From Thermophilibacter immobilis (GTDB lineage: Bacteria; Actinomycetota; Coriobacteriia; Coriobacteriales; Atopobiaceae): a stretch of 64,000 bases of DNA. The position numbers and the translations under genes are program-made. The notes under the pieces were generated by a model. That model was not told the DNA's origin, searched no databases, and worked only from the letters and a program-made list of their open reading frames with translations. Where the stretch lies: contig NZ_CP063767.1 in assembly GCF_015277515.1 (NCBI RefSeq), forward strand, positions 62,001 to 126,000, written 5' to 3'. This document shows positions 46,558 to 48,706 of this stretch, piece after piece. How positions within the stretch are numbered: position 1 is the first letter of the stretch; every line of letters begins with the position of its first letter.

Positions 46558-46596
46558 AGAAAGGTTTTAGAAGGAAGGATCTGTTGATCTTCAGGG

Positions 46597-46625
46597 GCCC
46601 CGGGCAATAGCTCGGGGCTCTTCTG
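46597..46625 (+). terminator. Terminator of the GH31 gene
   Basis: GCCCCGGGC and GCTCGGGGC form a stem with a small loop, followed by TCTTCT. It is 40 bases after the stop codon. Confidence 0.7.
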
Positions 46626-46686
46626 CTGCCCAGCATATTCAAACATGCATATTTATTGGGCACGCAGCGCTTATCCCTGCAGTCTA

Positions 46687-46917
46687 AGCCTTCGATGCGC
46701 GTTTTCCCCGGCTCGGATGTAGAGTGGCCCTTCGACGCGCATCTTTTCTGATCCAATCGAAATTAATCATATGTCGAATGAACATTTTCCGCAAAACAGC
46801 CGTTGCCAGCCATGTCCATTGCATATTTTCCTGATGGGTCAGTGGCGAACCCTAGGAGAGTGCGCGTTGAAGGGCAAAACTACATTCGCTTTTGAGATTT
46901 CATGCATCGAAGGGCAA
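46687..46917. repeat. Large palindromic repeat element, copy 2 (inverted relative to copy 1)
   Basis: Arms 46687-46742 and 46860-46917 again contain CCTTCGACGCGCA and its complement. The inner block reads AATTAATCATATGTCGAATG on the plus strand, which matches the minus strand of copy 1, so the two copies are inverted. They bracket the GH31 locus at a distance of about 14 kb. The remaining intergenic DNA from 46918 to 47041 shows nothing else. Confidence 0.75.
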
Positions 46918-47041
46918 AACTGCACCCATCAGACGCGGGGCCACGCGAGCAAGCGAAGCGTACGAGGGGAACTGATACGATGGAACCGTGGTTTCGCGGC
47001 GGCGGCCTTTTGCGTGCCGCTTTTGATGGCGCTGGAAGAGC

Positions 47042-47052
47042 GGGGGGGGGGG
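47042..47052 (+). repeat. Homopolymer of 11 G just before the PASTA gene start
   Basis: A run of eleven G ends four bases before ATG 47057 and occupies the place of the ribosome binding site. Length changes would alter the initiation region, so it is a candidate variable tract. A run this long occurs nowhere else in the window. Confidence 0.7.
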
Positions 47053-47056
47053 CGTC

Positions 47057-48706
47057 ATGGACAAGAAGGACGACAAGACGGTGGCCATGGGCTCCTCCCC
47101 TGACGCAGCGTCGCGTCCCAGCGAGGACCCCGACGCGACGCAGCTGTACGCGAATGAACCCAAACCCGCAGAGCTCTCGACCGAGGACGCCCAGCGCGTC
47201 GACCCCAATGCCGCGCAGGTGGCTGACGCGGCCCCCACGCGCATAGCAGTCCCCTCTGACGATCTCCCCACGGTTGTGGGACCCCTGCAAGGGGACGTGG
47301 CCCCTGCCGAAGCTCCCGACGGCCTTGATGCGCTCGACGATCCGTATTACTCGCCGGTCGTTCCCGAGGATCTCACGGCGCCCCATAGCCCCGTGTCCAT
47401 TCCGTCGCCAGTTCAGAGCCTGCCCGAGCGCAAGCACCGTTTGCCCCGCTGGGCCGTGGCGCTCATAATCGTGGCGCTGCTCGCGGCGGCGGGAGGAGTG
47501 GCATACTATGCCTATGACCAGGAGATTTGGGGCGGTCGGACCATCCCCTCCGTCATAGGTATGAGCGAGGACAAGGCGACCCAGGCTCTTGAGGCGCGTG
47601 GCTTCTCGGTGAGCGTTGAGTATCAGGCCGCCGACGATGGCTTTGACGTCGTGCTGTCATGCTCTCCTGATTCGGGCACGCGTGTGGATCCCTCCGCAGG
47701 CGTCACAATCGTCGTCTCCGCGCAGCGCACGATCCCCTCGGTTGTGGGCATGGACGTGTCCGCCGCTCGCCAGGCGTTGCTCGATGCTGGCGTCGGGACC
47801 ATTCATCTTACATATCACAACTCCGACCAGGCTGAGGGGACGGTGCTCTCCGTTGACCCCGACGAGGGGGCGGCCTTCACCTCCTCCGACACGGTGACGC
47901 TCACGGTGGCGCGCGCCTACACGGTCCCCGACCTTGGGGGGATGTCGCTGGCGGACGCGCAGGCCGCCCTCGAGGACGAGGGTCTCACCGCAAGCGTGAC
48001 CTACGTCGACTCGACGGCGGAGAAGAACACCGTCGTGGGGACAAGTCCCGCAGCCGGCGAGCGGTTGTCATCCGGTGCCACGGTGGAGCTCAAGGTCTCG
48101 AGCCCCTACCCGTCGCAGCCGTGGGGCCTCTTGGAATACTTTGAGGCGACGCCGCAGGAGCTCTCGTCCTACCTCTCTGATCAGAAGTTCTCCCTGCTCT
48201 ATGGGGAGCTCTACGCCGCAGGCGGCAATGCGCACGCGGCCTATCAGAACGCCGCGGGCGACGTGCTCCAGATTTCCGACGACCCCGAGTCGGGAAGCTA
48301 TGCGGGCGGCTCTCAGGCAGACATTCTCGCGAAGGGCGCGCCCCTCGGGGGAGTGCGCTACGCCTTCTCCACCGACTCGCTTCCCGAGGGGGCCGCGAGC
48401 GAGAGCGCGGAAGGCGTGCGCACGGTCATGTCTGCCTGCGGCCTTAGTAACCTTGTGGACACCTGTACGCAAGATGACGTAGCGCTTCCCGAAGGCGTCG
48501 AGAGGGACAGTGGGCACGTGCACTTCATCTGCGGCCACGGGCAGCAGGATGGCTACACGTGGGCCGTAGCCATAGGAGGCCGCGACGAGGCGACCAAGGT
48601 CGTGGCGCTGGTCGTGCCCACCGAGCACTTCTCGGGCCTTGACCTCTCCGCCTATGGGCAGAGCGTCTGCGACTACGTTGCCTACGTCAATCTGTACGAG
48701 GAGTAA
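47057..48706 (+). CDS. PASTA-domain membrane protein without kinase domain
   Basis: The 549-residue protein has a Pro/Asp-rich cytosolic region (1-130) and one transmembrane helix (about 135-155, AVALIIVALLAAAGGVAYYAY). Three PASTA repeats follow (TIPSVIGM, TIPSVVGM, TVPDLGGM; about 160-355), then a 190-residue extracellular C-terminal domain I do not recognise. PASTA domains bind muropeptides or lipid II and are normally fused to Ser/Thr kinases or PBPs. Here the cytosolic part has no kinase motifs but is rich in Thr (VAMGSS, DATQLYANE), which could make it a kinase substrate. It precedes a small acidic protein by five bases. Confidence 0.85.
   Translation: MDKKDDKTVAMGSSPDAASRPSEDPDATQLYANEPKPAELSTEDAQRVDPNAAQVADAAPTRIAVPSDDLPTVVGPLQGDVAPAEAPDGLDALDDPYYSPVVPEDLTAPHSPVSIPSPVQSLPERKHRLPRWAVALIIVALLAAAGGVAYYAYDQEIWGGRTIPSVIGMSEDKATQALEARGFSVSVEYQAADDGFDVVLSCSPDSGTRVDPSAGVTIVVSAQRTIPSVVGMDVSAARQALLDAGVGTIHLTYHNSDQAEGTVLSVDPDEGAAFTSSDTVTLTVARAYTVPDLGGMSLADAQAALEDEGLTASVTYVDSTAEKNTVVGTSPAAGERLSSGATVELKVSSPYPSQPWGLLEYFEATPQELSSYLSDQKFSLLYGELYAAGGNAHAAYQNAAGDVLQISDDPESGSYAGGSQADILAKGAPLGGVRYAFSTDSLPEGAASESAEGVRTVMSACGLSNLVDTCTQDDVALPEGVERDSGHVHFICGHGQQDGYTWAVAIGGRDEATKVVALVVPTEHFSGLDLSAYGQSVCDYVAYVNLYEE

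Follow-up and report, generated by a model that had tools for sequence, protein, structure and literature searches.

The run of 11 guanines (G11) at positions 47042–47052 of the window, the whole 64,000-nucleotide stretch of Thermophilibacter immobilis DNA analysed here, stands on the forward strand in the Shine–Dalgarno (SD) position of a gene for a PASTA-domain protein. We lean towards the explanation that it is the SD sequence of this gene, grown by slippage, and that single-base changes in its length would act gradually through a hairpin in the leader and not through spacing or reading frame. The placing of the tract and the comparison with relatives point to an overgrown ribosome site rather than to a proven on/off switch. 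The first-pass annotation had read the tract as a slippery SD element giving graded or on/off expression of a surface protein. The observation itself is confirmed and its interpretation is partly supported.

The G11 tract and the gene behind it

The tract is followed by the 4 nt spacer CGTC (47053–47056, + strand) and directly by an ATG at 47057–47059, so that both the coordinates first given and the distance of four bases to the start codon are exact. No other G-run of at least 8 is found on either strand of the 64 kb window. G-runs of 4, 5, 6 and 7 number 179, 58, 15 and 1, respectively, none has a length of 8–10, and there is the single run of 11. A G11 is expected at a mean of 0.09 per window, and six of 100 dinucleotide shuffles hold at least one. 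As a simple repeat the tract is long enough to slip in the manner of a contingency locus. It is also complementary to the 3′ end of the 16S rRNA at a suitable spacing, as judged by the 4 nt spacer and the pairing energy. The sequence GGATCACCTCCTTTCT, which we take to be this 3′ end, is present at two places in the T. immobilis genome.

The ATG at 47057 is the first ATG, GTG or TTG of its open frame, and the gene (47057–48706, + strand) encodes a protein of 549 amino acids with a Thr-rich N-terminus, one hydrophobic stretch, three PASTA domains and a conserved C-terminal region. The three PASTA stretches match PF03793 (7e-41), and no further Pfam family is matched at E 0.001. The single hydrophobic stretch (about residues 128–150) is N-terminal to the PASTA stretches, placing these outside a membrane anchor that was judged by eye. 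It is on this arrangement that the earlier description as a surface PASTA protein rests, and we retain it. Threonine motifs of the DATxL, PTR and TVAM-like kinds abound in the N-termini of the protein (47057–47300) and its orthologues. They could be targets of a kinase or an FHA domain.

The intergenic stretch 5′ of the tract (46558–47041, + strand) contains no sigma-70-like promoter by consensus scan and no terminator-like site, and Rfam gives no match near the leader. An open reading frame of 110 amino acids (46771–47103) spans the tract. It is no more than a mechanical listing, and the idea that the tract has a coding role in this frame was rejected.

The same site in relatives

A match at E 1e-10 is present in 124 of the 140 family genomes. 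A query built from an alignment retrieved 35 loci, whereas a scan with the single sequence retrieved no relative. The records that supplied the orthologues bear the names Thermophilibacter, Olsenella, Tractidigestivibacter and other Atopobiaceae. Start regions were inspected at 30 loci, consisting of that of the window, those of 27 of the 30 other genomes of the genus and two from another genus; the other three genomes of the genus gave no match (G085 and G113) or a weak match (G093). The orthologues share a comparably short start region that carries DEK and TV.M-like motifs. Met1 is invariant in their alignment, partly by construction, as the starts were chosen by a script.

All 29 other loci have an SD region at the homologous place, with GGAGG, GGGGG or a similar sequence and in many cases a 4 nt spacer (often cgac, cgag or cagc). 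This conserved position bears out the earlier statement that the tract stands where the SD sequence should be. Within 20 nt of the start, G-runs reach a maximum of 2–5 in the 29 loci (G5 in eight), so that the G-rich SD sequences of Thermophilibacter and Olsenella share the site of G11 but none exceeds G5. The starts used for this comparison and for that of unpaired probabilities were chosen by pairing energy, which took an internal ATG in loci L024, L027 and L032; their first ATG is preceded by gaggaggcgag and the limit thus still holds.

Since the 29 other loci have an SD sequence at the same place with a G-run of 2–5, G11 is an expansion, private to this locus among those seen, of a G-rich SD sequence. 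A uniform length in relatives had been named as grounds for abandoning the first interpretation. The length is not uniform (G2–G5 versus G11), which speaks for an expansion and not for switching. Replication slippage would have expanded a G4–G5 or GGAGG-type SD sequence, as the relatives keep, to G11.

Slippage and mismatch repair

A model search for MutS1 gave no match in the genome, compared with matches in 11 of 14 control genomes, and MutL gave two partial matches only (37.8 and 22.7 bits versus a cut-off of 180). Because there is neither a MutS1 match nor a MutL match over the cut-off, and because other G-tracts lie at frame breaks, slippage in G-tracts is credible in T. immobilis. The claim that such tracts slip thus holds for the kind of tract, on the grounds of its length, the two repair searches and the other G10 tracts at frame breaks. 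We infer that slippage of G11 in vivo is probably frequent.

Effect of tract length on initiation

Changes in length were at first supposed to alter the spacing and the pairing of the initiation region. After slippage the 3′ edge of the homopolymer is still 4 nt from the ATG, at any length; spacing is therefore unchanged, and a change in spacing was rejected as a mechanism. The pairing of a generic poly-G run with the 16S 3′ end is predicted at −8.4 kcal/mol for 5 G, −14.1 kcal/mol for 10 G and −14.9 kcal/mol from 12 G, and contrary to the original proposal it changes little above about 10 G. By its position G11 could in principle still serve as an SD sequence, with several Gs pairing with the CCUCC of the 16S rRNA in any register.

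The tract, the spacer and the start codon have a predicted partner within the coding region, a stretch in codons 10–15 (47085–47100, + strand) that holds ctcctcccc. In predictions on assumed leader ends, as are all pairings and energies given here, the leader 47010–47110 folds with −43.8 kcal/mol (z = −2.24; three of 200 shuffles are as good), positions 47044–47053 pair with 47091–47100 and the AUG pairs within codons 10–11. The SD sequence has a predicted unpaired probability of 0.05 compared with 0.18–0.58 in the 29 others, or 0.18–0.55 when the values for the internal starts of L024, L027 and L032 (0.52, 0.58 and 0.49) are set aside. The AUG is also closed in the predicted fold, and an unpaired probability of the start of at most 0.06 is likewise obtained in L018, L021, L036 and L045.

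The modelled net initiation energy is 0.7 kcal/mol at 5 G, 7.7 at 9 G, 8.7 at 10 G, 8.5 at 11 G and 6.1 at 12 G. Steps within 9–12 G are thus at most 2.6 kcal/mol, while going from 5 G to 11 G costs about 8 kcal/mol. Given this large modelled step from a short SD sequence, the start behind 11 G is predicted to be poorly used rather than efficient, and the PASTA gene may be poorly translated. That G11 still works as an SD sequence is not supported by the energy model (8.5 versus 0.7 kcal/mol). Of the graded or on/off expression suggested originally, the on/off part is not predicted by the model within 9–12 G and graded effects are likelier. Single-base changes near 11 G would change translation gradually through the hairpin between the tract and codons 10–15. 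If the tract varies in populations, the docking site of the ribosome would itself be a slippery repeat, and such variation would offer a direct test of whether poly-G SD sequences buffer or tune translation.

Alternative explanations

The alternative that survives best, although we hold it to be rather unlikely, is a true contingency locus, the length of which would be selected to vary and would switch or grade PASTA output between cells, most likely through leader structure. A long tract that is private to this locus and placed at a site of regulation is in line with this, as are the repair searches and the presence in the same genome of a G14 tract (in frame) and a G10 tract (out of frame) in LPXTG-type adhesin genes. 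The 7G tract in the 5′ UTR of espR, where one insertion changes the protein level (PMC11898584, as excerpted), is a further point in its favour, and in the model initiation is far poorer at 11 G than at 5 G. Against this, spacing is unchanged, the modelled effect of 9–12 G is small and many non-surface genes have long SD G-runs. Moreover, retention of the tract in related lineages, which is common for contingency loci although not required, is seen in none of the 29 other loci, all of which have at most G5.

The spread of long SD G-runs was assessed over 31 genomes with the pattern G8-N0–8-ATG, which gave 95 matches versus 19 for the reversed pattern. This is a rough sign of enrichment, as long tracts are counted repeatedly and the window holds 1.8 times as many ATG as GTA triplets. 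Thirty loci were read (29 distinct sites in 28 genomes). An ATG-led frame of at least 55 codons follows the tract in 20, including that of the window, and is absent in ten. The other 19 were scanned against Pfam together with the plsY locus of T. immobilis (L081), where G8-AGCG-ATG precedes the gene. Twelve of these 20 have a domain over the cut-off, one has a match below it and seven have none. The domains are a transposase, an epimerase, tRNA editing (in two species, behind G10 and G8), a phosphoribosyltransferase, an NTPase, an ADP-ribosylglycohydrolase, a sugar transferase (behind G11), a helicase, HNH/NUMOD4, GH43 and PlsY. Inspection by eye suggests that three of the eight proteins without a full domain (L049, L053 and L055) are exported or sit in the membrane.

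Judged by domain names, most of these genes do not encode surface proteins, which on balance favours a tolerated variant of the SD sequence. A role of the tract that is specific to surface proteins is not supported, given the long SD G-runs in the genus before two tRNA-editing proteins, a helicase, an epimerase and plsY, among others. We infer an absence of selection for switching at the PASTA gene. A G10-AAC-ATG before another protein with an N-terminal hydrophobic stretch (see below) still permits selection for variation in exported proteins.

A further reading, which we regard as distinctly unlikely, is that the SD sequence itself is a mutable element in the genus and that poly-G SD sequences grown by slippage form a class that acts like a rheostat, with frame and spacing constant. 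Output would then be set by the competition of anti-SD pairing with a hairpin to early codons and, from 11 G, with a quadruplex. If the tract varies in populations, the docking site of the ribosome would itself be a slippery repeat, and such variation would offer a direct test of whether poly-G SD sequences buffer or tune translation.

A sequencing or assembly artefact, with a shorter SD sequence as the true tract, is improbable. The frame breaks at two other G10 tracts of the assembly would also arise from miscounted homopolymers, but if the count were off by one or two bases the tract would still be far longer than the G2–G5 of the relatives, and the G14 tract is in frame.

Least probable is a two-tetrad RNA G-quadruplex, possible from 11 G in an uninterrupted run, that would sequester the SD sequence and set a length threshold: in a neutral context none is predicted at 3–10 G and one from 11 G, it gains 1.8 kcal/mol at 11 G in the leader of the initiation model and it wins in two of four folds of the real leader (47010–47116, −48.6 versus −44.6; 47036–47076, a fold without codons 10–15, −21.1 versus −3.1), but an ordinary hairpin wins in 47010–47110 and 47030–47110 and the energies of single-run quadruplexes are rough.

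Comparison with known systems

The nearest comparator that we found for tract-controlled translation is the 7G tract in the 5′ UTR of Mycobacterium tuberculosis espR, for which the excerpted report describes a one-base insertion that raises protein abundance post-transcriptionally through UTR structure (PMC11898584). Both G-tracts lie upstream of a start codon. That of espR, which overlaps the transcription start, begins 144 bp upstream, whereas that of the PASTA gene is at the SD sequence itself, 4 nt from the ATG. Length variation of the espR tract is reported among isolates (PMC11898584), while the PASTA tract is known from one genome. The sortase-dependent pilus of Bifidobacterium breve UCC2003 is described, in the part of the source available, as having a G-tract switch that acts by replication slippage and an intragenic change of frame (PMC9187656). 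Like the PASTA locus it is an actinobacterial surface-protein G-tract, but the PASTA tract is not part of a coding frame.

The literature search returned no paper that visibly treats a homopolymer in the SD sequence as a switch, as judged mostly from listings. It returned nothing on homopolymer phase variation in Thermophilibacter and, by titles, none for Olsenella.

Other G-tracts in the genome

The 2,163,714 bases of the genome form a single contig with ten tracts of at least 9 G, one of which (G14) exceeds 11. The first 0.63 Mb hold seven of them, all on the + strand, and the other three are − strand tracts further along, which may reflect a leading-strand bias.

A second expanded SD sequence, the G10-AAC-ATG mentioned above (C1:1191985–1192000, − strand; L014:3486–3501), precedes the gene of a DUF6273 protein that has a hydrophobic stretch at its N-terminus. 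In 28 other loci of this gene the G-runs before the listed starts are at most 6 in 27, and one gave no start. The modelled net energies are 3.9, 5.9, 2.5 and 2.6 kcal/mol at 8, 9, 10 and 11 G, respectively, with a step of 3.4 kcal/mol from 9 to 10 G.

The coding G-tracts of the genome resemble contingency loci. The longest, G14 (C1:552421–552434; L011:3422–3435), follows directly on the signal-peptide-like beginning of an LPXTG-type gene with a Cna_B domain and is in frame (849 codons, 828 amino acids from its ATG). In the adjacent LPXTG-type gene, which encodes a collagen-binding/SpaA adhesin (C1:555026–560007; L165:527–5508), a G10 tract lies at the start, at 555055. Here, an ATG with the SD-like sequence GAGGAGGG upstream reads just 49 codons, with G10 after the ATG, while another frame holds a signal-peptide-like stretch and a body of 1637 amino acids with SpaA and collagen-binding domains and an LPGTG motif at its end. 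Start and body thus lie in different frames across the tract, as in the B. breve pilus, the nearest comparator that we found for this tract (PMC9187656, as excerpted). By analogy the layout would correspond either to that pilus switch in the OFF state or to a sequencing error. The pair of adhesin tracts at 552–556 kb is a stronger lead to phase variation in this genome than the PASTA tract. A further G10 (C1:200305–200314; L010:9806–9815) lies at the apparent frame break of a methyltransferase-like gene, the first half of which weakly matches methyltransferase models while the second half, assigned by eye, has no match. In another species of the genus, a large protein has an in-frame G9 tract (L097:1538–1546) within its signal-peptide-like start.
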